The notes below the pieces were generated by a model, which was not told where the DNA came from, did no database searches, and saw only the letters and a program-made list of their open reading frames with translations. Shown here one piece after another: positions 1 to 40,100 of a stretch of 41,199 nt of DNA (positions within the stretch are counted from its first letter, which is position 1; the number at the start of each line of letters is the position of its first letter). The stretch is from a virus, in the IMG/VR virus record IMGVR_UViG_3300006920_000090, positions 1-41,199 of that record; one strand, 5' to 3'. A program made the translations under genes and the position numbers.

Positions 1-1092
1 CGCAAGCCTTGTTTGAACTGAAAGAGTGGCAATCTTGTGTCTGATTTCAGCAGAGAATTGACCATGCTGGAGTCTTGAGGAAACAATTTTCGAGGATGCG
101 TCAATTGCTTTCATGCTTGCATCCAAACCACCCAGCCGCATTTGGTATTGCTGACCGTACAACGTGTGCTGGTTCTGGAGTTTTTCTCTTGAGAGCTTGT
201 CGTTGAGTTCAGCGATAGCTTCGTTTCTTTCGCGGGTGTTCCTAGAAGTTATGTCTGCCATGATTCCTGAAGAATAGAATCCCCTGTCGATCATTGCTTG
301 GCTTTGAGTTGCCAAATCTGCATCAAACTTCTCGTTAATTCTAATAAGCTCTGTGGAGCCAAGATCGTTTAACAAAGCCTTTGCTATGACCTGATGGGCT
401 TCGTAGTCGGCTACAAGAGTCGTACCCAGATCGGCGTATTCATTGTTAAACGCTGTGACTGCAACTGCAAAATCATCAATTGCCCCATCAACTCCGTCAA
501 TGATAGCCCCGATATTTAACCCGCTAGTCATTTCGTCGTATTCGGCTTGAGCAGTGTCAGCCGCGTTTGCCCATGTCGTCTTGAGCTTGGCTAATTCCGT
601 TGCCCTGTCACCTGAATCTTTGCTTTGGTATTCTTCTTTGTAAGAATCGTAGTCGGCGGCAGTTTGATCCACTTGATTAAGCATTATAGTAAGATAGCCG
701 CTTTCACCCCCAGCCTTTTCGTCTACAAATTCCGTCACTTCGGACTGGTGCTTGTCAAGCATGTTTTGCATGTTGAAGATAATATCTTCGTACCTTGCAT
801 CATTTGCCCAGCGACCTTCATTGAACGAATTAGTAAAGTCAACCAAAAGGCTGTAAAGCACATTCCAATGCAGCAGCCTAGTCCTTGCCATTAAGTAGGT
901 TGTTGTCGGAGGCTCTGTACTTTCATCGGTGTTTGCTGCATTAAGCTGCCACCCTTGAGCTAAAAGCCACGGCAATGCCTCCTCGGAAATTCCATCCACA
1001 ACGCTGGTAAAATACCAGCCGTTCATGTTTGGAAGACCTTTCCAAGCAGGCGTTATGTCCTGAAACTGTGGATCAAGTTCTGTATGCGGCAT
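1..1092 (-). CDS. Partial phage virion-associated protein, 3' end cut by window edge
   Basis: An open frame begins with ATG at 1092 and runs to base 1 without a stop, so at least 364 N-terminal residues are present and the C-terminus lies outside. The protein begins MPHTELDPQFQDITPAWKG. Its middle is acidic and alpha-helical, with long Ala/Glu/Asp/Lys-rich stretches typical of a coiled coil, and late segments such as RNTRERNEAIAELNDKLSRE. The start is set by a one-base TAATG overlap with the stop of the gene upstream, implying translational coupling inside the late operon. I do not recognise the family. A tail or internal virion protein is inferred only from position and composition. Confidence 0.75.
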   Translation of the reverse strand, partial: MPHTELDPQFQDITPAWKGLPNMNGWYFTSVVDGISEEALPWLLAQGWQLNAANTDESTEPPTTTYLMARTRLLHWNVLYSLLVDFTNSFNEGRWANDARYEDIIFNMQNMLDKHQSEVTEFVDEKAGGESGYLTIMLNQVDQTAADYDSYKEEYQSKDSGDRATELAKLKTTWANAADTAQAEYDEMTSGLNIGAIIDGVDGAIDDFAVAVTAFNNEYADLGTTLVADYEAHQVIAKALLNDLGSTELIRINEKFDADLATQSQAMIDRGFYSSGIMADITSRNTRERNEAIAELNDKLSREKLQNQHTLYGQQYQMRLGGLDASMKAIDASSKIVSSRLQHGQFSAEIRHKIATLSVQTRLA

Positions 1093-1619
1093 TAGGACAC
1101 CGTGATAGTTGTAGGTTTAGGAAAACTGTGAGTTGTTGAATCTCGCCACAAGTAATAAGTTCCTGCGTCAAGTAAAAACGTAACGACTCCGAAATCATTT
1201 GTGGTAAGCGTACCCGCAACCACGTTAGAGCCTGCTGAGTCTGTAGAAACCCAGCATTCAACTCCCGCTACTGGAGTCCCTGAAGACTTGACGGTTAGCT
1301 CGTAAGTAATTGAACCTGCACCGCCAAGCCCTGAGACATCTACGTTGGTAAATTCGCCAGCCTGAACTATTTCTGTGTCAGTTCCAGTAAATTTAACTTC
1401 GTATGAAGCAACTCCTTGGCCTGCAAGAAATACAACCACTCGATGCTTGCCATCAATTGCAGGCGAACCTGTAAATGTTGCTTTATAAAGCCCACTACTC
1501 GCAGGCAATTCTGCAACAGACGAAGCCGTATGCAAGACAGCATCCCCGCCAATAGCAAACACCTTTGCTGTAAGAGTTTGCCCAGACGTATAAGCAAATT
1601 GTATTTTTTGCGTAGCCAT
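1092..1619 (-). CDS. Small beta-sandwich virion protein (transthyretin/carboxypeptidase-regulatory-like fold)
   Basis: The protein has 175 residues and begins MATQKIQFAYTSGQT. I chose this ATG over a longer frame because AAGGGA lies just upstream and the longer form would overlap the preceding gene. The sequence is beta-rich. Its second half (GTPVAGVECWVSTD, then a threonine/valine stretch and DAGTYYLW) looks like the Ig/transthyretin-like fold used as an adhesive or stalk domain in phage tail proteins. The first half resembles small phage beta-sandwich domains. It lies between tail fibre genes and the next virion gene, and its stop overlaps the next ATG. Function in host attachment or fibre connection is inference. 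Confidence 0.7.
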   Translation of the reverse strand: MATQKIQFAYTSGQTLTAKVFAIGGDAVLHTASSVAELPASSGLYKATFTGSPAIDGKHRVVVFLAGQGVASYEVKFTGTDTEIVQAGEFTNVDVSGLGGAGSITYELTVKSSGTPVAGVECWVSTDSAGSNVVAGTLTTNDFGVVTFLLDAGTYYLWRDSTTHSFPKPTTITVS

Positions 1620-15192: not shown

Positions 15193-17193
15193 TTAATGCC
15201 ATGTATCAACATGCTCCGAGCCTAGTGTACCAAATATGTCAAGTCTTGCCTCTATCCACGGATCGCCTGTAGCATTTTTTGCTCGATCAAAATGAGCTAT
15301 TCGTCTTGCCATGCACCCCTCTGGGGCATCTTCATTGGATATTTCTACAATTTGATCCTGCGAAACTGATTCTCCCATTTCGTAAATTGCCAATGCCGCC
15401 GCAATTACTCGATCTGAGTGAGACTTGCCTTTTGCACCTTCATCATCGCTTTTTGTCGAGCCAACGTGAACTATTTTGCCGTTTTTCCATTCATATTGCC
15501 CACATTCTTCTAGCAATTCTTGCGATCTTGGAATAAACGTCCCCATCGCTATTGCCGCTACCATTCCTTCAAACAAAGCCAGTTTCGTGTCGTCGTTAGT
15601 CATCCAAAAACCATTTTTTTTGGTCAATTTCTTCAATCCACTGATCTGGGTTTCCCTTTGCCACAGTTTTGGATAAGAAAGCTCGTCTTCAACCACCTTC
15701 ATGAATCCACCGCTAAAGTTAGCTTCAGGAATCATAACGGCATCGTAAAACCAACGGCACAAAGCAACTGAGATAATTCCAAACCGGCGCGGCTCTGATA
15801 AATTGCTTGACCATTCAGCAACTTGTTCGCCGGTCATTTTATTTATCACTGAACAAACTGAATTTGCTGTGTAGCTGCCCCCCGTGCCTCCACCAATATC
15901 AATTCCAATTGAATGTGTCCCAAATGGAGGTTTTCCATTTAGGTCTGGCTTAAACCAAAGAGAAAGCTCGCCGCTTTCATCATCAACAAAATAAGGCTCG
16001 ACCGGCATCCCCGTTTCCATGTCAACTAAAAGTCGCCCTTTGAAATCCGGCGGTCGAGCGTGATCGGCTTTTGCTTTGTTAATAATTTCTGCCGAAATTA
16101 CTTTTGAAACCGCTCCTTTTGGGTTTCTATCAAGTTCTTGAGCAACACCTCTAGGAGTGGCTCCGGGTCGCAAGCATTGATGGTTGTACCAAATGTTTCT
16201 TATAACATCAGTGCATTTGTATCCTCGGCGAGACAATTTTGAATGCTGAGTCCGTATCAAAGCAATTTCTTTTTCGGTTAGTTTGCCGCCATACTTTTTC
16301 GGATTAACATCTCTAATCGTTCCATGTTTAAAAACATATTGCTTGCGATTTTGAACTGGATTGTCTTTCCAATCCAAGACCAAATAAACGGCATCACTGT
16401 CGCCTACCTTTGCGTCTTGAGCGGCATCGTAAAACGCGCCCGTATCTCCACCGAACGTCGATACGAGAAACCGGCAATTCGCAACGTGCTGTGTTGAGTT
16501 CATTACCTCTATGTCTTTGCCGCCAGTAATAAACTCTTTGCCCCCAATTTCGTCGATGCAAAACAAGGTTTTTCGACCACCGCGTGCTACGTCTCCAGTT
16601 GCAGCGTAACCAACAATAGATGCTCCATTTTGAGGATTTAACAGACTGTGTTCGGTTACGTTCCTGTGCTTTGACCATATAAATCCTTCCGGCATCATCC
16701 AAGCTGGCAACAGTTTCATTGCCCAGATGATTTTCCACATTAAAGTATCAGGGTCACGGTCTGAATCGACCAGCCGTTCAGTACGAGTCACTAGCCCCGC
16801 CGAAAACATATCATCTCGCAGCCAACGGCGAAGGCAGATCATTAAATACATCCACGTCGCGCCTTGACCACGGCTTTTGTCGAGAACTACGTCAAGGCAG
16901 GTCTGTGTTGTTTCGTAAAGTGTTTCAGCGTCATCAACAGCCGAATCCATTCCAATCATTACGTCTTCTTGGTGCTTCCACGGAATAAATGGAAGAATCT
17001 TAATTGCCGACCGAGGCTCAAACGCCCAGCAAAACGCTGCAAAGAAAAACAAGACATCATCCATCGCCATTTGGCGAAAGTCGCGTTGAAGAATTTTATC
17101 TTTCATCGCGTCTGTTCGCCATTTAGCTCTCCATCTTAGATTGTCTTCGATTTTTTTTGGTACTAAATCGTAATACGGGCTTGTTTTGCTCAT
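15193..17193 (-). CDS. terL: Terminase large subunit (ATPase-nuclease packaging motor)
   Basis: The protein has 666 residues with both expected domains. In the N-terminal ATPase, the Walker A-like loop is DKSRGQGATW at about 105-114 and the Walker B is LFCIDEIGG at about 210-218, with acidic D-E. In the C-terminal RNase H-like nuclease, acidic residues lie in SIGIDIGGGTGG (about 431), MIPEANFSGG (about 486) and HSDRVIAAAL (about 594). The length is at the long end of the family. The ATG overlaps the stop of the upstream lipoprotein gene as ATGA. No small terminase subunit is recognisable next to it. Confidence 0.93.
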   Translation of the reverse strand: MSKTSPYYDLVPKKIEDNLRWRAKWRTDAMKDKILQRDFRQMAMDDVLFFFAAFCWAFEPRSAIKILPFIPWKHQEDVMIGMDSAVDDAETLYETTQTCLDVVLDKSRGQGATWMYLMICLRRWLRDDMFSAGLVTRTERLVDSDRDPDTLMWKIIWAMKLLPAWMMPEGFIWSKHRNVTEHSLLNPQNGASIVGYAATGDVARGGRKTLFCIDEIGGKEFITGGKDIEVMNSTQHVANCRFLVSTFGGDTGAFYDAAQDAKVGDSDAVYLVLDWKDNPVQNRKQYVFKHGTIRDVNPKKYGGKLTEKEIALIRTQHSKLSRRGYKCTDVIRNIWYNHQCLRPGATPRGVAQELDRNPKGAVSKVISAEIINKAKADHARPPDFKGRLLVDMETGMPVEPYFVDDESGELSLWFKPDLNGKPPFGTHSIGIDIGGGTGGSYTANSVCSVINKMTGEQVAEWSSNLSEPRRFGIISVALCRWFYDAVMIPEANFSGGFMKVVEDELSYPKLWQRETQISGLKKLTKKNGFWMTNDDTKLALFEGMVAAIAMGTFIPRSQELLEECGQYEWKNGKIVHVGSTKSDDEGAKGKSHSDRVIAAALAIYEMGESVSQDQIVEISNEDAPEGCMARRIAHFDRAKNATGDPWIEARLDIFGTLGSEHVDTWH

Positions 17194-17480
17194 CGGCGAA
17201 GCAAACGACGAAGTAGAGAACGCACTGGCTTTCGGCGAACACGGCGTTCCCTTGTTACCTGTACGACTTTTTCCATGACTGGACGTTCAAACACAACTCT
17301 GTCAACAACTCGACTGGTAACACCTTGCAAACATGATTCGCAAGAAGTTTGACCAATTTGCGTTTCAACAACCATTGGAACTTCAATTGGCTCTTGGGGA
17401 ACAATTAAGTCACACGCCACTAGCCCAATTGGAACAGCCAGCAAAAACAAAACAACAAACACTAAATTTCTGGTTCTCAT
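17190..17480 (-). CDS. Small lipoprotein upstream of terminase
   Basis: The protein has 96 residues from the ATG giving MRTRNLVFVVLFLLAVPIG. GAGGAA precedes it and it begins two bases after the protease stop, so the longer frame is rejected. The signal peptide ends in a lipobox, LVAC, with Asp at +2 (CDLIVPQ), which in enterobacteria marks inner-membrane retention. The mature part is short, with a CESC pair and an arginine-rich end (RRVRRKPVRSLLRRLLRR). The basic tail could bind nucleic acid or acidic lipid. It may partner the neighbouring protease in lysis or envelope modification. No family is recognised. Confidence 0.7.
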   Translation of the reverse strand: MRTRNLVFVVLFLLAVPIGLVACDLIVPQEPIEVPMVVETQIGQTSCESCLQGVTSRVVDRVVFERPVMEKVVQVTRERRVRRKPVRSLLRRLLRR

Positions 17481-17482
17481 CG

Positions 17483-18625
17483 CTACTTCCTCAGCTTGGT
17501 TAATATTAGTTTTACGAATTGGATAGGCCAATCGTATTTCAACGGTGTAAGAATTGTCGGGGCTACCCAAGCCGCCAACACAGCCATAATAATTGCCGCC
17601 CACATAGCAAAACGGATAAGCGACCGAAAGAAATCAGCAATGCCGCCAAGAATTGACCATTCCCGTATTCGATTCTGGCGATCTGGTTTCTGGCGAATAT
17701 CTTCACCACGAATAGGAAATCGCCACCTTCGTTGTCGGCTGACTTCAAGACGCTTGGGGAGTTCAGTCTCGTCCTGCATAGCAACATGCTTTACTTGATC
17801 GCACGTTACGGCTCCTTCCGGCAAGCTACTGCAAATTGTTGAAAGGGATACTGCACCTTCAGGCAAGTCAAAATTACCAGCAGAGACACGACCAGCCCGA
17901 ATGTCCGCTACTCTATCTGATGTCATTGCAAGCCCTATCCACCTCCCATCAACCTGCATTGCCCATGCAGTTCGCCCTACTACCTCCCAAGCGTCTCGTT
18001 GACTTGAATATTTAAAAACAGCCGACCCTGAATCGCCGGATATGGATTTCGGAATATAGTAAATCAATCCGTCTGAAACTTGCAAGATTGAACCGCACCT
18101 TGCCCGAGGAACGCGACCGTCCGAGCAGCCGACAGTGAAAATCTTTTCACCAGCTTTAAGATCGGCTTCTCCGTAGGGAGCAGAAGGCACAATTGGAACC
18201 GCGCCGCCAAGTGTTTCTAGGGACACAACTATTGTTGCAATATCCTTAGAAATGCCAGATTCAAACCAAGAATCGTCGGTTTGGCAATTTACGCTCGAAA
18301 CCAACTTACCTTCGTACCAAACGTCAACCACATGTCTGGTTCCTCGATCTCCGGCAACATGCCGGTTAGTTTCAAACTCAACATGCGTAGCATCAAGCAC
18401 ACTATCGACTGTCGAAACCGTCGAATCTACGGTTTTAAGGTATTTTACCGCCGAGGCTGAACCAATTGAATTGCGACTGCGAATGCGTACTGATGCGTCA
18501 AAGCAATCCTGAGCCAAGCCATCAAACTCCAGAACTGGAATCGACGGGGCTTCAGTGTCGAGCTTTTCCTCTGAGCAACCTGCAATCGCAACCGACATTA
18601 CTGCAATTAAAACAAAGCGTATCAT
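17483..18625 (-). CDS. Lipoprotein trypsin-like serine protease with C-terminal membrane segment
   Basis: The protein has 380 residues. It begins with a short lipoprotein signal (MIRFVLIAVMSVAIAGCSEE), giving Cys17 as the lipidated residue and Ser at +2, which favours the outer membrane. A trypsin-like domain follows (about 35-260) with an intact triad: His89 in NRHVAGD, Asp128 in SKDIATIVV, Ser199 in SGDSGSAV. Basic, Arg/Pro-rich sequence (RRWRFPIRGEDI) leads to one hydrophobic span (about 339-359, FAMWAAIIMAVLAAW) near the C-terminus. A protein fixed in both membranes has the layout of a unimolecular spanin, but with an enzyme between the anchors. It is the first gene of the late operon. 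Lysis and envelope protection are both possible roles. Confidence 0.8.
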   Translation of the reverse strand: MIRFVLIAVMSVAIAGCSEEKLDTEAPSIPVLEFDGLAQDCFDASVRIRSRNSIGSASAVKYLKTVDSTVSTVDSVLDATHVEFETNRHVAGDRGTRHVVDVWYEGKLVSSVNCQTDDSWFESGISKDIATIVVSLETLGGAVPIVPSAPYGEADLKAGEKIFTVGCSDGRVPRARCGSILQVSDGLIYYIPKSISGDSGSAVFKYSSQRDAWEVVGRTAWAMQVDGRWIGLAMTSDRVADIRAGRVSAGNFDLPEGAVSLSTICSSLPEGAVTCDQVKHVAMQDETELPKRLEVSRQRRWRFPIRGEDIRQKPDRQNRIREWSILGGIADFFRSLIRFAMWAAIIMAVLAAWVAPTILTPLKYDWPIQFVKLILTKLRK

Positions 18626-18690: not shown

Positions 18691-18923
18691 ACATAAGACT
18701 CCTAAAGAGGAAGTGTAGCTAAAAGCTACACCAAGGGACGCTGCATTTCCATTATCTAATAAATGCAACCTTGCAAAGCCAACGGGCGTGACCCCTGTTC
18801 ATTGTTGGTGCTTTTCGTAGTTCTTTGGGTACGGGATGGTCGTGATGCCTTCCACTGGAGCCGGATACGCTACGTGAATGTCCTTGGATTTGGGTTTGGC
18901 AACTGGGAACAACCAGAATAAGC

Positions 18924-19000
18924 CAAAAAAAGGACGTTTGACGACCTCTCCGGTGGCCTAGTGAGTACCCTTCACTAGCAGAGAGATCATCAAACGTCCT
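18924..19000 (-). terminator. Large branched hairpin terminator for the leftward nuclease operon
   Basis: The arms AGGACGTTTGA (18931-18941) and TCAAACGTCCT (18990-19000) pair perfectly. CCTCTC/GAGAG-type pairs extend the stem, and an internal hairpin CTAGTGA/TCACTAG has a 7-base loop. On the minus strand the stem is followed by a run of seven T (18924-18930). It would stop transcription from 19060-21217 before the late promoter. Confidence 0.85.
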
Positions 19001-19059
19001 TCTTTATCAACTAGGGTACAGTCGGTAAGCCTTTAAACTTACACTTTCTGAGAAACATG

Positions 19060-24674: not shown

Positions 24675-24785
24675 ATGTTGATTTTTAAATTGGTTGTTTA
24701 CGCGGCGATGGTTGGAAGTATCGCCGTCATTTTGGTGGACATGGTTAAAATTTTTAAAGGGAGTGATGATGATGAGAAACAATGA
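24675..24785 (+). CDS. 36-residue single-span membrane protein
   Basis: This short frame reads MLIFKLVVYAAMVGSIAVIL followed by VDMVKIFKGSDDDEKQ. It has one clear membrane span (about residues 3-21) and an acidic/basic tail. GGGAG lies 12 bases before the ATG, which is long. The frame overlaps the start of the lipoprotein gene by 14 bases in another frame. Small holin-like or inner-spanin-like roles would fit the pairing with a lipoprotein, but no family match is claimed. Confidence 0.45.
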   Translation: MLIFKLVVYAAMVGSIAVILVDMVKIFKGSDDDEKQ

Positions 24786-24957
24786 TTGCAAGGGATTTAT
24801 TTTGTTTGCTGGTTTGTTGATTTTGCTGCTGACGGTCGGACTGCTGTGCGGCTGCCAAGCGACAAGCCAGCGCGCCGTAATTGAAACGAGTGTCCCGAAC
24901 GTATGGTCTGAGCAGCCAACCCAGACCATCTCAATTAAGTTGGAGTTTGCAAAATAA
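24772..24957 (+). CDS. Small outer-membrane-type lipoprotein
   Basis: Three consecutive ATGs lie at 24766, 24769 and 24772. AGGGAG ends at 24763, so the last has the best spacing, giving 61 residues (MRNNDCKGFILFAGLLILLL...). The lipobox is LCGC with Gln at +2, favouring the outer membrane, and the mature part is about 38 residues with no further span. Size and overlap with a membrane protein gene resemble o-spanin arrangements. It could also be a superinfection-exclusion lipoprotein. The longer frame from 24694 lacks a ribosome site and a signal-peptide-like start. Confidence 0.6.
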   Translation: MRNNDCKGFILFAGLLILLLTVGLLCGCQATSQRAVIETSVPNVWSEQPTQTISIKLEFAK

Positions 24958-26102: not shown

Positions 26103-26483
26103 ATGACCAAATATTTAACCAACCTGACAGACATTCAAAACGAATCGACTTTGCACAGCATGTTGCAATATTTTCTAGGTCGGCCTCAGTTTCGACATAT
26201 CGCCAGAAACATGTTAATTGCTGGCGACCCTCTTTTCAGTCAAAGACTTTTTGACGAGGGAATTACGATGTCAGACAAATGGCTCAAACTTTATTTTAAA
26301 ACTAGGCTGGCATCGGAACTGTTTTTGACAAAGCACAGCGATGCGAAGCGACTTGACGAACTGGTAGTTGTCATTCCTATTACTTGGACTCATCCGCAAT
26401 ATTTAGAGGTTTTGATTTTGGGATTTGACGTGCAAGACCATGAAACTTTTTATGCAAACGAGGAAGGACATGTAGATGAATAA
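26103..26483 (+). CDS. Phage protein of unknown function
   Basis: The frame encodes 126 residues (MTKYLTNLTDIQNESTLHSM...). It has an N-terminal helical half and a beta-rich half (ELVVVIPITWTHPQYLEVLI), ending acidic. GGAG precedes the ATG by five bases in the GGAGATGAA-ATG form seen at other starts. The last codons overlap the next gene by 8 bases. No motif is recognised. Confidence 0.6.
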   Translation: MTKYLTNLTDIQNESTLHSMLQYFLGRPQFRHIARNMLIAGDPLFSQRLFDEGITMSDKWLKLYFKTRLASELFLTKHSDAKRLDELVVVIPITWTHPQYLEVLILGFDVQDHETFYANEEGHVDE

Positions 26484-26733
26484 AAAAGACCCCCACATTT
26501 ATTATCACGACCGCCCTTACGGTTTAAGGCCAGACCCAAGCGACCGGCTAAAGTCCGTGAAGGACTACGAGGAGATTGCCACCATCGACACGATTAAGCA
26601 ACGGTGGAAGGAAGGCGACAGCTACCGGCAAATCGCAAAGTGGCTTGACGGGGAAAAGATTCCTACGCGAAGCGGAAACAAATGGCATCACCAGCAGGTG
26701 ACTAGAATTCTTAGGCGGGAGGGATTGATCTAA
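26476..26733 (+). CDS. Small protein with serine-recombinase-type helix-turn-helix
   Basis: The protein has 85 residues. From about residue 40, IKQRWKEGDSYRQIAKWLDG, then KIPTRSGNKWHHQQVTRILR, matches the C-terminal recombinase HTH pattern (an RQIA helix, then IPT-x-xG, then a V-xx-IL recognition helix). No catalytic resolvase domain is present, so it is a DNA-binding module only, likely a transcription or replication regulator. It ends the plus-strand cassette and overlaps the convergent nuclease gene by 23 bases. Confidence 0.65.
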   Translation: MNKKDPHIYYHDRPYGLRPDPSDRLKSVKDYEEIATIDTIKQRWKEGDSYRQIAKWLDGEKIPTRSGNKWHHQQVTRILRREGLI

Positions 26734-29521: not shown

Positions 29522-30562
29522 CTAACTAAGCTCTGGGTTAACATCACCCAGATGAACAAATCCTTCAGGAACACGATCTTCAAATTTAAACTTTGAGGAA
29601 CACAATCCAAAATAGCTGCAATAGGAACACGATCCCAAATTTACTGTCTTAAAATGGGCGTTGGTTTTTTGGGCTTCCCTAATAGCTTTTTGAATTTCCC
29701 AATTTTCAACCTTCATTTCGGCAATGTCATCATCCAGTCGTGCGATTTCCTGACGCTGGTAATACCAGTCTGGACGCAACTCAATGTCACATTGCAATTT
29801 TTGTGACCATTCTTCAACAAACATAGAACGAGTTTGCAAAACATAGCCCTTTGCTTTGTCTCCGCTTTGACGCGGTTTTCCTTGGGCTGTCATTACGCGC
29901 TTTCCATCTTCACCTAAAACAACCTTGTCTCCATTGTCGTCCAAGACTGGCACGGCTGAGGGCTTAATTGTAGGCTTGCGAATTACATCGTACAAAACGC
30001 TTTCGGGTTCATAACCAAGCTCTCTGGCCGCGTGAGTGTAGATTGTGATCTGCGTGTCTATCTGCAATCTTCGCCAGTAATCCGAATCCGGCGAAATGTC
30101 ATCAGAGATAAACTTATGCTCCAGAATCAAATTTCGATTATCTATTTTAATGATTCCGTCGATCTTACCCGCAAGCTGCCAAATGGTTGACGAACGATTA
30201 GTCGATGGATTTCGCAAAGGAATATTAAACGCCTGCTCAGATTGAAGAACTTCAAATTTAAAGTCCTGCCATCGCCAAACGTAACCTGCGACAAGACACT
30301 CAACGGTTTCCCTTTCGATTTCCCAGTCGTATTGTTCAATGCCTTCAGGAAGCCCTGCGTACATGTCCGAAACAGCATGTATTGCAGCTTCGAGACTCCC
30401 AGTCTTTTTGTAAGCGTCCAGACCTTCGTGACCTGCCGATCCCATTCTAAGTGCCTTGGCATCAACCACGCGACGCAAGCCAAGCTCGTAAGCCCAGTAG
30501 TGTTTCTTTCTACAAAGTTTAAACGCCTGCATTCTACTGTGCGTCAAAAGTTGCTTAGTCAT
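29522..30562 (-). CDS. Cas4/AddB-like Fe-S PD-(D/E)XK exonuclease
   Basis: The protein has 346 residues from the ATG giving MTKQLLTHSRMQAFKLCRKK. AAAGG lies seven bases upstream and the start lies within the end of csrA. The nuclease core is GKIDGIIKID, then LILEHKF (about 137-150), with an earlier GHEGLD. Four Cys, one near residue 17 (KLCRKK) and CSYCSYFGLC (C-x2-C-x5-C) near the end, match the iron-sulphur frame of Cas4 and AddB. It would resect DNA ends for the Sak4-type recombinase. No Cas1 or array is present, so a CRISPR role is unlikely. Confidence 0.8.
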   Translation of the reverse strand: MTKQLLTHSRMQAFKLCRKKHYWAYELGLRRVVDAKALRMGSAGHEGLDAYKKTGSLEAAIHAVSDMYAGLPEGIEQYDWEIERETVECLVAGYVWRWQDFKFEVLQSEQAFNIPLRNPSTNRSSTIWQLAGKIDGIIKIDNRNLILEHKFISDDISPDSDYWRRLQIDTQITIYTHAARELGYEPESVLYDVIRKPTIKPSAVPVLDDNGDKVVLGEDGKRVMTAQGKPRQSGDKAKGYVLQTRSMFVEEWSQKLQCDIELRPDWYYQRQEIARLDDDIAEMKVENWEIQKAIREAQKTNAHFKTVNLGSCSYCSYFGLCSSKFKFEDRVPEGFVHLGDVNPELS

Positions 30563-30752
30563 GGCACAACCTTTCACTTACTTCTGCTTCATATCTGGCT
30601 TTTGCTTTAACGATTTCCTGACGATCAACATTTACATCGTTTGGAGCATTAACGCCGAGCAAAACTGACTTCCCCTTGTTTCTTAAAACCGTGACCTCAA
30701 TATTTCCATTAAGCACGATTGTCTCGCCAATCCTTCTTCTCAAAACAAGCAT
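30555..30752 (-). CDS. csrA: Phage-encoded carbon storage regulator CsrA
   Basis: The protein has 65 residues (MLVLRRRIGETIVLNGNIEV...). LVLRRRIGETI and LLGVNAPNDVNVDRQEI are near-exact CsrA blocks. The RNA-contact Arg equivalent to E. coli Arg44 is kept, while the usual preceding His is Asp. CsrA dimers bind GGA in mRNA leader hairpins and block or stabilise translation. The start is the second ATG; AGGAG lies six bases before it. A longer frame upstream is rejected. It overlaps the Cas4/AddB-like gene by 8 bases and follows the XRE gene and a terminator-like hairpin. It may remodel host mRNA use or run a phage regulon. Confidence 0.93.
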   Translation of the reverse strand: MLVLRRRIGETIVLNGNIEVTVLRNKGKSVLLGVNAPNDVNVDRQEIVKAKARYEAEVSERLCHD

Positions 30753-30767
30753 TTCCATCTCCTGTTG
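30752..30767 (-). promoter_or_regulatory. csrA start motif ACAGGAGATGGA, possible autoregulatory CsrA site
   Basis: On the minus strand ACAGGAGATGGA (30754-30765) ends one base before the ATG. It is close to the CsrA consensus ACARGGAUG and contains two GGA triplets five bases apart. The Shine-Dalgarno AGGAG is within it, so bound CsrA would block ribosomes. Confidence 0.45.
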
Positions 30768-30772
30768 GGTAC

Positions 30773-30839
30773 AAAAAAAATGGGGATATTTTCTGAGGTC
30801 GTCACTTCCTTGCTTCGCGGCACGACTTACCGCGTCCCC
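30773..30839 (-). terminator. Attenuator-like hairpin between XRE gene and csrA
   Basis: On the minus strand GGGGA (30835-30839) and TCCCC (30782-30786) pair around an inner CGCGG/CCGCG stem (30830-30834, 30816-30820). After one A the strand has eight T (30773-30780). It would stop part of the transcription from the XRE promoter before csrA. Confidence 0.55.
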
Positions 30840-30885
30840 TTGGACAAACCAGCTTACACGAAAACAATACAGCAATCAATCTGGC

Positions 30886-31153: not shown

Positions 31154-34100
31154 TTAATCGCGATAAACCTTACTCATAAGCCATTTCCTGCCTTCTTCAA
31201 ATTCTGGAATATCTCGCACAACTCCCATACCAAACATAGGCGTACCGTCATCTTTTACGCCTTTTTTGTATAGATAATGTTCGGCTAGCAACTGAACAGC
31301 GTCATTTACATCGGGAACTGCCTGCTTAACCTTGTCGTAAGCTGCTTTTCTACTTTGCTCGTAAGCCTGTTTTCTTGCGTTAAATTGCTTTTGCGTTTCA
31401 TTTCTCTTTGGTTTTCGAGGTCTGGCTGCTGCCGAGTAAACTATTTTGCGTTTCTGTTTGGCAATTGACTCTATTAAACTTGCTGGAGGATCTTGCAGCA
31501 AATCGAGATTAGCTCCAACTGCGTTCACGTCCTGTTGCAGGCTTTTAATGCTTTTCCCAGCCGCTTTCATTTCATCCATCATTTCCCTCGCGGGATCAGC
31601 CACTCCTCCAATAAACAACGCTGCTTCGTTGTAGGCTTTAATTTGCTCCTTGCTTGCTGTTCCGTTTTGCACCTTTTCGTGCAAACTATCCTTAATTCGG
31701 CGAATTTGTTTAGCAGTTTTTCCAACATCTATTCTTTTTTGCGCATCGGCTCTCTTTTTTCTTTTCTTGTCGCCGTACTCTTTTTCGCGGATTCCAGTGT
31801 CACTCCATCTAAAATAGGAGCTTAGTCCAGTCACCGCCCCCAACGCTTTAAGTTCAGACATTCCACCGCCCATCCCGCCCGCTTCCCCTTTTTCATTTAA
31901 AATTGGAGTAGCCCCGTATTTTGCAATCGCGCCCATAACGCCAAATTGGTCAAACGTCCATTCAAGCATGTCGGCTGCTGCGTAACTGCCTCCCATTTCA
32001 TAATGATCGTCGTCAATAATTCGCCCACCGAGGAACGGCGATTCAGGATTATTGCCAACGGCGTAATCGCCATAGGCATACGCAATTTGAAGCGGAGGTG
32101 CTAAGTCAGGAATTGCGGCTCCAACAATGTCTCCAAGCACATTGCCAACCGCATCAGACATGCTGCTTCCGTCTTTTACCTCTTTGCCTCTGGCGATAAT
32201 CATCATGTCAGTGACGTTCCACCAGAGCTTTGAAATGGTTGCACCTAAATCATCTCGCGGAATGCTTAACCAAATCAACTCCCATTTGCCCTCACGTTTT
32301 CTTAATCCCAACGGAATGCTGTCATATGATGTAAAGAAGTATGTTGAAATGTTACCTCTATATCGTTCAAGGGTTTCGCTTATTTTTTCTTCACCTTCCT
32401 CGTCGCCGTAACCCATCAACTGCCCTAGCCCATCGAATACCCCAAACGCACCATAAGCACAAAGTTTTGAAAAACTTGTCGGCAAAATAGAATTCAGCGT
32501 TTGCCTCCACCACCAGCGAGAAGCTATTTCTTTGTCAGTTGCTAAAGACAGATCAGCCTGAAGTCCGTTCCATCGAACTTTAGAATACATCATGATTCCG
32601 TTGGTAACTCCTGTATACATTCCAGCTTGTTTGTAATCAGGTGTTCCAACAAACTTTTTAACCCTGTAAGCTCTTTCTGCATCCGTAAGATTGCGGTCAG
32701 CCAAAACTTTCCAGCCAGCTACTTTCATTGCAACTTCTGTCGTCTCTCCAAGTTTCTTTGCAAAGTCAAGGTAGTGTCCAAGACCTGTATATTTTTTTGC
32801 TGTGTCAATTCCTTTGGCAGCAATCTCCCTGCCCTGCTTTCCAGCCTTTTTAAGTTGTCTTCCTCGCTTGTTTCGGATAAAGGACGATCTCTTAACAAAT
32901 TCATCGGCTAGGTAACCGCCCAATTCAATTGGACTGGCAAGATTTTCTCCCATAGTTGAATCTGGCTTACCTTCCATGATTCCCATTTTGACAAACGTCT
33001 CGTCAAGTAAAAGAATATCTTTGTCTGCTTTAAATCTTTCTCTGCGAGTAAACGGCACGTCCATTGCGCCTGCATCAATCATGTCTTCAGCAAGTTGCAC
33101 AGGATCACCAGATGCAAAATCCCACCCTTCTTTCAACGATCCAACGTAAGCTGGCACAAGCTCTGTCCAAAACTTAACTCCGTCTGTCGCGCCCAGATTG
33201 ACTCCGGCTCTCCTTATGTCGCGAAGCGGATTCTTGAGTGCAAACGCCATTGAATACGTCACAAACAATGGATGGAACACGTTATAGACCGCCGAATTCA
33301 ACAATCTCTCAACGGTAGCTAATGTTCGCTCCATTGCTGGAATTTGAAAGGCTTCAGCAATGTTGTCGGCAACTAAATATTTTACTAACTTGCCGTCTTC
33401 GAATTGATAAATAATTCCTTTCCCGTCCATTTCCATTTGGCGTTTATTGATTATTTCATTTCGTTTTAGCTTTCGAATTTCTTTGCTAAAATCCTGTTTT
33501 AATAACGCTGTTGTTGCCTTTGCCGCGCGTTGTTTGATTATCAACCGATTAAGGTTCATGTATTTAAGCATCGTGGCTTCAAATGGATTTGCCACCAAAC
33601 TAAAAGTTCCAACCTGCTCTTTTATCATTGGGGTAACGTCAGTGTAAAACAGAGCATGGTGCATAACACGAAACGCTGCGTAGTTGTCCTTGTTTGGTTC
33701 AATTTCACTGTCCATCAACTTCTGGCTGTAAATCCCAATATCAACAGCATCCTCTGCAATCTCAAAAATTAAATCGTTAAATATTCCAGCCGATTTATTT
33801 AGCGATCTCCAAACATCTTTGCCAAGGCTTTTTTTCAGCCAGTCCATATACATTGGAACTTGAGCAGGTTCGATTCCAAGCGGGTTAATCAAATCATATG
33901 TTGCATCTACATCGTCTGGATCGTTTAACGATCTTGTTCGACCGCCATTCTGGATTCTTCGATATAGCATGTATTCGCCGAGGCTGTTTCTTGCAGCAAT
34001 TCGAGCATCTTTTTCACTCATCCCGCCTTCGACAAATGTTTGAACCAATGGTTGGAACACTTCGTCATCAACCCTTCTAAAGAATTTGTAATTAAGGGTG

Positions 34101-37100
34101 TCTTTAGTATTAAGGTCGTCTAAAGCATAGCGAGCGGCTTCAGCTTTGGCGTTCGTAATGTTTCCAAATTGCTTTTTGCCTGTTTTCTTTTTTGCGGCAG
34201 CACTTGTGTCAATGATTGCGTTTTGCCAGTCACCAAGAAAACTTTTAACGCTCTTTGAAATGCTACCCATGCGAGCATCTTCGTCCTCTCGAAGCTGCAT
34301 AGCCATGTCTTGAGTTTCTTCAAACATGGCTTGAACATTGGCGGTTCTCGCTTTTGCTAACTCAATCGGATCACCGTTCAACAATTGCTGTATTTCAAGA
34401 TATGCAGTTTGCACACTAGGCTTGTTGTTTAATTGCTTGTGCCACGTTTCATAAAACATTGGAGCGCGGTTTTCAAGCTCTTTTGGACTTACCAACAAAA
34501 CGGAAATAGCTTCAGCGTAAAGTTCCTCTGCGCTTTCTCGGTATCTAATGTACTTCTTATTGGCATTTCCATAATCGCCAGACCACCATTTTGTAAGCGC
34601 AATAAGCTCTTGTTTAATTGCGTCATTTGCAATTATGCCCTCGGCCTTAACAAGTTCCGTGTACTCAACAATGATCTGTGCTTCAGTAGCAGTGCCGCCA
34701 TGCTTCCTCTCTGCAATTCTTTTTGCTTTACTTCGCAGTCGTTTTTGGTCTTTGCTAGTCAAATCTGCGGTTAGCTTTTTTCTGTAGTTAATCAGCGAAA
34801 ACAAACGACCAAGTATGTTTCCTCGACCCATAGTTTCTTCGTCGAGAAAATCTTTTAGGTGACCTAGTTCGTGAGCAAGTGTTTGCAGAAGGGCTTGTGG
34901 GTCTAAAGCTAGTCTTGGATTGATATTTATCTGTTTATTATTTGGATTAAAATTGCCAGCCGTCCTCCATTGCAAGCGGTGGTTAAGTTTCGGCAACTTA
35001 CCGCCAGAAAGCTGCCTTACCAAGTCAACCAATTCAGGCAACTCCACTGGCATAATTGCCTTGATCCAGTTCTTAGGATACCCACGCGACTGTACCGCCG
35101 CAGCCTCCTGCTCAGGTGTCCTTGTGTCCATCCCTTGCGGCACTGAACCCGGCCTTTGGTTTATTGGCGGTCTTCCCGATGGCTTGGAGGCGTATTTCCC
35201 GCCGGACTGTCCACCACCGGACTTTTTTGACTTGCCTTTGGACTTGGGCTTTGACCCTTGTCCAATAAACGTCATTTTGCTTTCAGTTTTTTTGGTGTAC
35301 TCGTCTAACTTGCCTGATAAAAATGCTTTCCCAATTGCTTTTGAGTCTTTTGCAATCGAATTTGACTCAAACCCTGCAATTGTTCCAACGTATGCCGGTA
35401 ATCCTAAATACGAACCCTTAACATAGCCACGAAACACAACCACGTTTTCTTGTTCCTTGTGCTTGTAAGCAATGGCAGACGGGTAACGTGTCATAATTGT
35501 GTCGTAATATTTTTTATCAACCTCAATAAACTTTTCAAATTCTTTACCTGAATGAGATTTTAATCCCAACAAAACCCTTTTGTCGTTTATTACACTTGAA
35601 CCCCTATAACCTAAAACAACCATTTCTCCCCCAACATCAGGGTCTACCATATCTTTGACAACTTTCTCTGGCAGAGGTTTTTTGTCTTTTGCTTTCCGCT
35701 TGGTTTCGTTTGCTCGCGCTAAAATTTGCTTTGCGTCTTTTTTTGGCACAACAACTATAAATCGCCCGTTGGTAACAATTGGTCGTTCAAATCTCAATCC
35801 CGAAAACATGTCATAGACACCCTTGTAATCCAACTCTGAATTAAGAACAGCAGCCAATCCGGCATTTGTAATATGATCTTTGCTTTTTGGCTTAACCCTG
35901 TAAGTGCTTTCTTCTTCTGGAGCAAACTTGCCTTGAATGTATAGCTTTGCAACTTTCTTGGCTTTAGCTAAATCAAAACGAACATCAACAATAACTTTAT
36001 TTGGTTTCTTTTTAGGTTGCCGCTTTGGGTCTTGAAAAGTTGGCTGAACAGTTGCTTCGGAGATTCTAAAATATTTTGAATATTTAACTTCTCCTTCTTC
36101 AATCACCAATCGACGATCTCCTAGAGAAACTCTAAATCTTCTCATCTTTTTGCCATCTATTTTGACCGAGGCTGTTTCAACTATTGTCGGTTCGCCTGAC
36201 AAATCTACTTCCTCAGCAACTGTCGGCTCGACAACTGGAGCCTTCTTCTTGCCTTTGCTTTTCTTCTTTAACTCTTTTGTTAAATCGGCTCCTCTTTTCT
36301 TTTGATCTTCTCTCCATTGGCTTTTTCGATTTCCCTGATTTCTCATTTCTGTTGCCGCATCGCCAGTCACGACAACATCAACCCCAGCATCATTTAATCG
36401 CTTTTGCAAGTTGTTTGTTTTTGCTGACCCCCCCCCAAGCAAGTGCAATCTCCACTTCGAGCCTGCCATCGCTTTGCTGATTAATGAGTTAAACAATTCA
36501 TCTTCACTCCAAGCTGCGTCATTAAATGGTGCGCCTAAAACCACGCCATCTGTTGGAGAAAAGTCAACTACGTCTGTTGTTTCTGCAACCACTTGAGAAA
36601 AATCACTAAAGATTCCATCGCCCTTTTGCATTGGAATAATTACATTAACGCCCTGTTCTTGCAGATACCAAATAATATTAGAGTTTTCCGCTAGGAGCTT
36701 TAAAGTTTTTTCTGGATTGCCTTTGAATAGATTTCTTCCGGTTTCGTCTTTCCCTAAAAGCTCAAGAACATCAGGAGCAACTACATACACATTTCTTCTC
36801 ATCTTCTTGTTGATGTCGCTTATCATTTCCATATAGGTAGCCAAAACCTCTTTATGGTTTGGACTCAAGCCCTTGTGGGCTAGGCTTGCAACACCTGAAT
36901 CAATAAATATTTGTTTCCCATTGTTAGCAGCTTGAACAAACGCTTTTTGTACTCGACCTGAAATTTTTGCTATTTTGCCTTGTTGCGGGTAATAAACGGA
37001 AACTCCTACTCCTCTTTCGTTAACCTCTCCAGACGAACCAGTTGACCATGCTTCAATATCTGTAGGACTTTTTTGACCACCTGAAACAAAATTGTCGTAA

Positions 37101-40100
37101 CCACGCTCAATTGAATCTATTGACGAAGGGGAGTCGATTCCCTTTGCTGGCTTAACAGGCGGGAATGGCTTTAGCGGGGCTTTCTTAGGCGGCTTAGTTG
37201 CCTCGCCGTCAATTTCCTCCTGCATAAGCGTGTCGGACATTTGCATTACTTCTTGCAACGCCGTAATGGATCTGTTGCTAAGTCCAAGTGCGTCTTTAAT
37301 GAAATCCATAAACGCATCAAGAAGGTTTTTGCTCCGCAACTCGGCTTTGGCTTTTACGCCTGCAACTTTTACTCCAGATAAGTATTTCCTAAACTTTGGA
37401 CGGCTAAGTGCATAAGCGATAAGCTCATTTTCATTTAACTGTTGAGAGGGAAGACCAGCTAGTCGCTTAGACTCAGCGTATTCTTCTCCAATAAAGGAGT
37501 TTTCTACTTCCTTTGCAATTACAGTTAGCCGGTTATAAATCCTTTTACTTTTTTGCGTTATTGGATCGCCTTCAAAAGCGAGTTCACCAATTTTTAACCC
37601 TTGAGATACATGAATCTTAACTGCTTGCCGTGTCGCCGCGTGGACAAGCTCATGCAAAAGCACTTCTGGCAAATAACCAGTTGCTTGTTGTTTATTAATC
37701 TGAACTGTATGGTTTTTTGGATCGTAACCTCCGTGTGCTTTAAAGACTTTTCCCTTGCTGTTAATAATTTCATTTACGATTTCTAGCTTTGGAAAACCTA
37801 ACTTTTGCTGAGAAACTGCATTTTTTAAATCATCCCAAAGTGCTTGCTGGTCTGGAGTAAGCTCCATGTTGTCGAGCATTCCAACGTAATCGCGTTCGCC
37901 AAGTTGCAAAGGTTCTGGCAATGGCTCTGTCGGCTTCGCTTGTTTTTGTTTTTTAGCTTTAAATTCTTCTTGCAGTTTTGCTTCTCTTAGCTTGTCGGAA
38001 AAATCCGCAAGTCCGTCTTCAAACGAATCAATGTCTTTAAATTGACTTTCTACAACGTCTTGGTTTGCTTTAAAAATTGATTCAACAGATGACCGAGGGT
38101 TTTCTTCAATTATTTTTCGAGCAGACTCAAGAATTTCTTCTTTGGTTGCAACTTTTTCGAGTTTGTCAGTTTGATCTTTCTTAATTTCTGGTTTGCCCAA
38201 CTTTGCCGTGTTGGATAAAGCAACAACAACGTACATTTTGCCAGCGAGTGTTTCTCTTATTGAAACTGCGGAATCAAAGCCTTGGTTTTTAAGAGCTTGC
38301 AATGCTCTGCCGGTTTGCCGACCCAACTCAGATTCGCGAGACATCTGCGTGTCATAATCTCCCCATTCCTGATCTGTAACTATCTTTGGGTTTTTAAGTT
38401 GCAAATTAAATTCGGCAACGTCTCCGTAAGTTTTTGCAAACATTTCGTTTGATATAAAATAAGAAAATTCCTCCGCAAGTTGCTCTGGTTCGTTTGACCT
38501 TGAACCCCGATACATCGAAATATTTGCAATGTCTTTTGCAACCTCCTGAGCTTTTGTGAGCTTCGGAGCTTTCGGCAATGCAGGTGTCTTTTTAGCTGAA
38601 GGTTGATAGACTGGAATTTGCTTGCCAAATAAAGCCCCTAAATGAGAATCAATTTTCCAAACTCTTTCAGCTTTAATCGGAACTTGGGATTTAACGTATC
38701 CATCTCTGGTTTCTTTTAAGTCACCACGCGAAGCCTCAACGATATAGGTAGGTTTTCCAGTTTTATTTGGATTGTCCCGTCCCGTGTTAACATACGACTC
38801 CGCATCGTGCATTCGTTCAGAAAAACTTGTACCTTCCCCTTTTACGGAGTAATCTTGCCTGCTTTTTATCATTCCATCGACCGCCACAGTTTTTACATAC
38901 TCTGTTTCGGTCATCCCGCGATATATCTTGCCTTCTTTTTGGAGTTTTTCGTATAATCCTTCTTCACCAACACTGCTGTCTCGGTCGCGAAATCTATAAA
39001 TAGTTTGCGGCAATGCAGGTGGAGTTGCCGGTTTGATCGGCGGCGGCACTGCGGCAAGAGGGTCTTTAACTGGGAACGGTATAGTTGCCTTGCCTTCTTT
39101 TCTCTTGCCTGTTTTTAGATCGTCATAATTTTGTTCAACCAAAACTTTAGGCCACATTCCTCTAATCCGATCAAAATTGCCTGCATCAGCCTGCTCGCTC
39201 CACCTAATTGTTTCTCCTGCTACTGATTTTAAAACAACTGGAATAGTTTTTACTCCACGCTTTTTTAATGCTCTTGCTCTGTGCCTTCCTTCGTGACCCA
39301 CAATTTTTGCGTTGCCTTTTTGGTCATTATTAAATTCCAAAAATGGTATGTCGTTGAATTGAACTCCCTCATCAAGAAGTTTTTCAACATCCTTTACTTT
39401 GCTTTGGATTGGCTCGGCTGTTTCTGCCATTTTTATAAAATCACCAACTGGCATGTCAATCAAAATTTCCCTTGACAGTACTCCAGTATTCAAACGCTCA
39501 TACGCGCTGTCAGAAAAGTTTGGATGCCTACCTTTTTTGCGCTTCCCCTTGCTTTTGCCTTTTGGCTTGATCGCCGGTGCTGCTGGCTTTTTAGCTGTCG
39601 GCTTTGCAGGTGCTTTAGCAGGAGCCTCGACAAACGCTTTCATCTCGTCAATAAGCGATTTAAACTTGTCGGTTTTTGCTTGGTCTATTTTGATTTTTTT
39701 TGCTTCACCCCAGCCAGTTCCAAAAGTAATATGATTTTTTAGTTTTTTGTAATCAATTTTGCCCGAAACCATGTTTCTGTAAATTTCAAACGCAAGTTGA
39801 TTATCCGGCATTGGCACGTCACGATTTTCCTCTATAGGCGACCTGCCAATGCCTCCATCCAATATTCCATTTTTTGTTCTGACAAACGAGTCAGAAAGAC
39901 CTCCAATAGTAAAAACTTCAGCTTTCTTTTCAGAGACTTGCTCGTTGTATCTAGGAAGCAAAGGCACAATTTTTTCTTGAATAAACTGAATTCGTTTGAC
40001 GTGTTCTTCTGCTTCTTTCAAAATGTTTGTTTTTTGATTTTTTCTAAACCTTGCTACATCTTCTGGCTTTTTACCGTTAACTTTATTTTGTAGCCAATAA

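Follow-up and report, generated by a model that had tools for sequence, protein, structure and literature searches.

A candidate membrane-tethered serine protease and its small cationic partner encoded among the virion genes of different phages

Relation to spanins, disruptins and chymotrypsin-fold peptidases

Among the tailed phages that infect Gram-negative hosts, about 13% have no identifiable spanin, and how they manage without one is an open question (PMC12819732). Unimolecular spanins (u-spanins) of the phage T1 gp11 type are built of an N-terminal lipobox, a beta-rich middle domain and a C-terminal membrane span; none of the 58 u-spanins in a published survey has a periplasmic cysteine (PMC6139136). 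Disruptins are cationic phage peptides that disrupt the outer membrane (PMC12819732). Here we describe a pair of genes found in a 41,199-nucleotide stretch of viral DNA (IMG/VR record IMGVR_UViG_3300006920_000090, hereafter the window). The product of gene 1 has the lipobox, the beta-rich middle domain and the C-terminal span of u-spanins. Unlike u-spanins, it contains six cysteines in addition to that of the lipobox, has a conserved catalytic triad, is accompanied by a constant partner gene (gene 2) and has no lysis-cassette neighbours. Nor does it show sequence similarity to known spanins, with no match to a PHROGs spanin family or in INPHARED. Thus, the topology on which a preliminary description of this gene based its u-spanin reading stands, but the cysteines, the enzyme domain and the lack of lysis-cassette neighbours set the protein apart from the u-spanins and speak against classing it with them, even if the barrier at which it acts may be the same.

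The protease shares its fold, the order of its His-Asp-Ser triad and the GDSG motif with Trypsin_2 peptidases (PF13365), including HtrA and DegS. It differs from HtrA and DegS in lacking a PDZ domain and in having a lipobox and a C-terminal span, and within the chymotrypsin-fold peptidases it counts as divergent. In the viral structure library, the top match is A0A6J5RC96, a trypsin-like peptidase of an uncultured Caudovirales phage (16% identity over the aligned part). The short Arg-rich and possibly amphipathic end of the partner resembles disruptins (PMC12819732); however, the partner differs from them in being exported, in its length of about 92-105 aa and in usually having a lipobox. No phage protein combining a lipobox, a protease triad and a C-terminal span was found in INPHARED or in the literature searched, in line with the preliminary description, which knew of none with this exact layout. 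That description did not include the minus-strand location, the partner gene at 17190-17480 or the occurrence of the pair in different types of phages.

Table 1. Features of the gene pair, its surroundings and the other small membrane-protein candidates in the window
Feature	Position	Strand	Basis or remark
Gene 1, candidate tethered serine protease, 380 aa	17483..18625, stop included	minus	ATG start
Signal sequence and lipobox IAG-C17, residues 1-17	18575..18625	minus	Cys invariant where the N-terminus is reached
Predicted chymotrypsin-fold protease domain, about residues 41-243	17897..18505	minus	Pfam Trypsin_2 and Foldseek
Catalytic His89 codon (putative)	18359..18361	minus	invariant; position confirmed
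Catalytic Asp128 codon (putative)	18242..18244	minus	invariant; position confirmed
Catalytic Ser199 codon (putative), in GDSGS motif	18029..18031	minus	invariant; motif located
Linker, low-confidence, partly basic, residues 244-324	17654..17896	minus	low pLDDT and charges
Predicted C-terminal membrane span, about residues 336-358	17552..17620	minus	hydropathy and predicted helix; in all relatives
Predicted tail helix after the span, residues 366-379	17489..17530	minus	AlphaFold model
Gene 2, predicted exported partner, 96 aa	17190..17480 (likely extent)	minus	lipobox-like Cys, CxxC, Arg-rich C-terminus
Terminase large subunit gene	15193..17193	minus	PHROGs; overlaps the end of gene 2 by 4 bases
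Terminator-like dyad upstream of gene 1	18915..19015	minus	fold energy -50.9 kcal/mol, z -7.6
Single-span protein, 36 aa	24675-24785	plus	scan of short ORFs
Lipoprotein-like ORF, LLCGC lipobox, after the 36-aa protein	ends 24957	plus	scan of short ORFs

Architecture of the protease and its partner

The product of gene 1 is very probably an exported protease with two candidate anchors (Table 1). Its N-terminus, MIRFVLIAVMSVAIAG-C17, consists of a signal sequence and a textbook lipobox, IAG-C17, with Ser at position +2. In E. coli, Asp at position +2 of a lipoprotein causes retention in the inner membrane, and other residues permit sorting to the outer membrane. The +2 residue among the relatives is Ser, Lys, Arg, Gln or Val and never Asp; placement of the lipid end in the outer membrane would be allowed if lipoprotein sorting in the host follows the E. 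coli rule. At the opposite end, the last 56 residues are predicted to form a long helix (residues 325-358), which holds the single span (hydropathy peak 2.14), and a short tail helix. Both signals had been named in the preliminary description and are borne out here. The net charge of the span flanks is +3 to +6 on the N side and +3 to +4 on the C side. Since the N side is as positive as the C side, the positive-inside rule lends no support to the assumed orientation. The linkers on either side of the protease domain, 24 and 85 residues long, could extend over at most about 9 and 31 nm, respectively. The signals fit one anchor in each membrane no better than two anchors in the inner membrane, and a tie across the envelope is presumed. 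A GlyGly-CTERM/rhombosortase anchor was ruled out, because a tail of about 20 residues follows the span.

The middle domain belongs to a known fold. Pfam Trypsin_2 matches the window protease weakly, at 18.7 bits, which is under the cut-off of 27.6, and matches the relative in contig L034 at 29.2 bits, over the cut-off. Foldseek searches with the AlphaFold model returned the chymotrypsin/HtrA fold: 443 PDB structures matched at E<=0.001, the best of them at 1.4e-7, and thrombin, HtrA and DegS were among the matches. The two models are of modest confidence, with mean pLDDT of 56 and 60; nevertheless, with hundreds of chymotrypsin-fold matches, the predicted fold is secure. No close sequence relative was detectable in the PDB. 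Pfam scans found no PDZ domain after the protease domain, and beyond about residue 250 the model consists largely of linker predicted with low confidence. The triad His89-Asp128-Ser199 is intact, at the positions given in the preliminary description, and invariant in 11 sequences; together with the fold, it suggests that the protein is catalytically active. Cleavage after Arg or Lys is not predicted, since the position six residues before Ser199 is occupied by Lys193 (Gln in L013) and not by Asp. The cysteines other than Cys17 are at positions 41, 114, 167, 177, 265 and 275. Conserved disulfides were considered and rejected, as several of these cysteines are missing in L034.

Gene 2 encodes a small protein with predicted export, a lipobox-like Cys, a QEPIEVP motif, a CxxC motif and a strongly basic C-terminus, its last 22 residues having a net charge of +10. 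The amphipathicity of the Arg-rich tail is not clearly above that of shuffled tails. The partner in L034 has kept the signal sequence and the basic tail and has no lipobox Cys. A GTG start that would extend the product of gene 2 to 137 aa was discarded, since stop codons block the frame upstream of gene 2 in L012, L013 and L015. The stop of gene 1 and the start of gene 2 overlap or almost adjoin in every backbone, which suggests that the two genes are translationally coupled. When used as the sole query, gene 2 returned only contigs of the same set, and it adjoins the protease gene wherever the contig reaches the latter.

Conservation and genomic setting of the pair

Scans of viral contigs with several queries converged on the same small set of contigs and yielded ten relatives of the protease, with identities of 50-100% over the protein. 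The search for the triad and both anchors in homologues, together with structure prediction, had been put forward in the preliminary description; the fold was found and all these features are conserved. All nine relatives whose sequence extends to the N-terminus retain the lipobox Cys. The same description had raised the possibility that homologues might lack the C-terminal span, which turned out to be present in all ten. Codon comparisons with L012 and L013 gave dN/dS of about 0.04-0.06 for the protease region, with dS near saturation, and indicate that this region is under strong purifying selection. The stretch right behind the lipobox drifts almost freely, as is usual in lipoproteins. Given the conserved triad, Cys, span and fold and the low dN/dS, the architecture is not a product of chance. 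Searches of GenBank phages (INPHARED), plasmids and GTDB genomes returned no relative of the protease, and searches of GTDB genomes and plasmids with the terminase of the window likewise returned none. One contig of the set, L016, matches the window at about 17650-17410 and is a natural hybrid of window-like and L012-like segments: the window-like parts are the protease span and the partner's signal segment, and the remainder of both genes is L012-like.

The location of the pair differs between phages. In the window and its near relatives it precedes the terminase gene. G003, which has almost nothing else in common with the window type, carries it after the tail genes, and in L034 it is found before a tail-fibre gene. 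In these three different backbones, the pair is co-directional with virion genes. The comparison of contigs thus identifies the pair as a two-gene unit among virion genes of different phages, and its surroundings suggest that it is most likely expressed late, with the late genes. The proposal of the preliminary description that gene 1 stands at the head of a late operon fits the setting in the window, where the very stable terminator-like dyad, with T-rich ends on both strands, divides the pair from the upstream gene and the terminase gene comes next after gene 2. The distant relative G006 has no pair. Nor is there one in L041, which is distant as well (41% terminase identity) and in which a gene weakly similar to the 109-aa gene of the window abuts the terminase gene.

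Possible roles of the pair

The explanation we tentatively prefer is that the membrane-tethered protease and its cationic partner breach or remodel the host envelope late in infection, although we would call it possible rather than probable. Gene 1 would provide an exported serine endopeptidase, held at the envelope by its N-terminal lipid and its C-terminal span and co-produced with the small exported cationic partner. Most likely expressed with the late genes, the pair would breach or weaken the envelope at the end of infection. Positioned outside the cytoplasm beside the membranes, the protease would cut envelope proteins, and the Arg-rich end of the partner would position the protease or disturb the membrane. 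In this scheme we infer the catalytic activity, the lipid attachment, the anchor membranes, the substrate, the late timing and the lysis-type role. Consistent with it are the conservation of the triad, Cys17 and span, the chymotrypsin fold, the low dN/dS, the adjoining of gene 2 to gene 1 in every backbone, the co-directionality with virion genes, and linkers long enough for crossing the periplasm. Furthermore, no holin, endolysin or spanin was recognised in family scans of the window, G001, G003 and L034, in which the PHROGs tables cover the first 25 families, although such scans easily miss divergent lysis genes in such divergent phages and this absence is weak evidence. Beside the protease, the neighbours are the terminase gene and genes without lysis families. 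Against a lysis-type role speak the L034 partner without a lipobox, the absence of the pair from G006 and the rival candidates at 24675-24957. The latter form a small holin- or o-spanin-like tandem on the plus strand (Table 1). They compete for lysis roles and make it harder to argue that lysis has to be the task of the protease pair; they also rule out that the pair encodes the only membrane proteins of the genome. Relatives of the 36-aa span protein are encoded in G001 (48458-48706, minus strand) and, as judged by eye, in G004 (874-1119, minus strand). If the lysis role is true, the tethered protease would offer spanin-less phages one definite solution that can be put to the test, and it would be a lysis enzyme whose targets are proteins of the envelope and not the peptidoglycan. 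It is unlikely, on present evidence, that the pair represents an undescribed envelope-breaching system in the full sense, namely, a catalytically active protease that is tethered at both ends across the envelope, replaces the spanin or disruptin together with its exported cationic partner, and is swapped with it as a two-gene unit between unrelated phages.

The same features can be read in other ways. The tethered protease might trim surface or periplasmic entry proteins and thereby shield the infected cell or the released progeny, that is, act in superinfection exclusion or receptor shaving. The lipoprotein export signal and the extracytoplasmic protease agree with this role, as does the cargo-like behaviour of the pair, which some phages have at the TerS-TerL junction and others lack there, and which recurs in different backbones. 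However, the position within or beside blocks of virion genes points to late and not to early expression, and simple shaving would need neither the conserved C-terminal span nor the cationic partner. We regard exclusion or shaving as rather unlikely. Even in this case, the architecture and its constant partner would be new to the collections and the literature searched. Close fold matches to HtrA and DegS raise a different prospect, in which a single membrane carries the two anchors and the protein is an inner-membrane regulatory or quality-control protease, with the partner or stressed envelope proteins as its substrates while virions are being made. The partner gene adjoins the protease gene in all cases, the charges on the two sides of the span do not speak for a layout across the envelope, and the +2 Asp of the window-type partner would, under the E. 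coli rule, keep the partner in the inner membrane. Yet the +2 residue of the protease is never Asp, the PDZ domain is absent, and the residue six positions before the catalytic Ser (Lys193, or Gln in L013) does not predict partner cleavage after Arg or Lys; such a use seems unlikely.

Least probable is a true u-spanin, in which the protease fold would serve mainly as a collapsing or linking domain and the two membranes would be fused once the wall has been cut. The lipobox, the C-terminal span and the beta-rich middle domain match T1 gp11. On the other hand, a mere linker would not need an invariant and strongly constrained triad, and the six cysteines besides Cys17 contrast with the absence of periplasmic cysteines from all 58 surveyed u-spanins (PMC6139136). 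The lack of lysis-cassette neighbours and of a spanin family match also counts against this role, which we consider improbable.

Several other features of these genomes were recorded. A weak DUF2272 match was detected in G001. A CsrA homologue (Pfam CsrA, 2.4e-17) is encoded at 30555-30875 on the minus strand of the window, and homologues are found in G001 and the distant relative G006. The CsrA genes, along with the style of the basic tails, led us to consider a planctomycete-like host, which we do not put forward as a claim. A temperate lifestyle was considered as well; the recombinase-like ORF of the window (26476-26733, plus strand) is only 85 aa long, matches a serine recombinase only in part (Pfam Recombinase, 9.4e-10) and is possibly a remnant. 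Finally, a giant ORF of 3341 aa with weak metallopeptidase matches (Peptidase_M91, SprT-like) occupies 31154-41179 on the minus strand, and G001 contains a 3993-aa ORF in a similar position.
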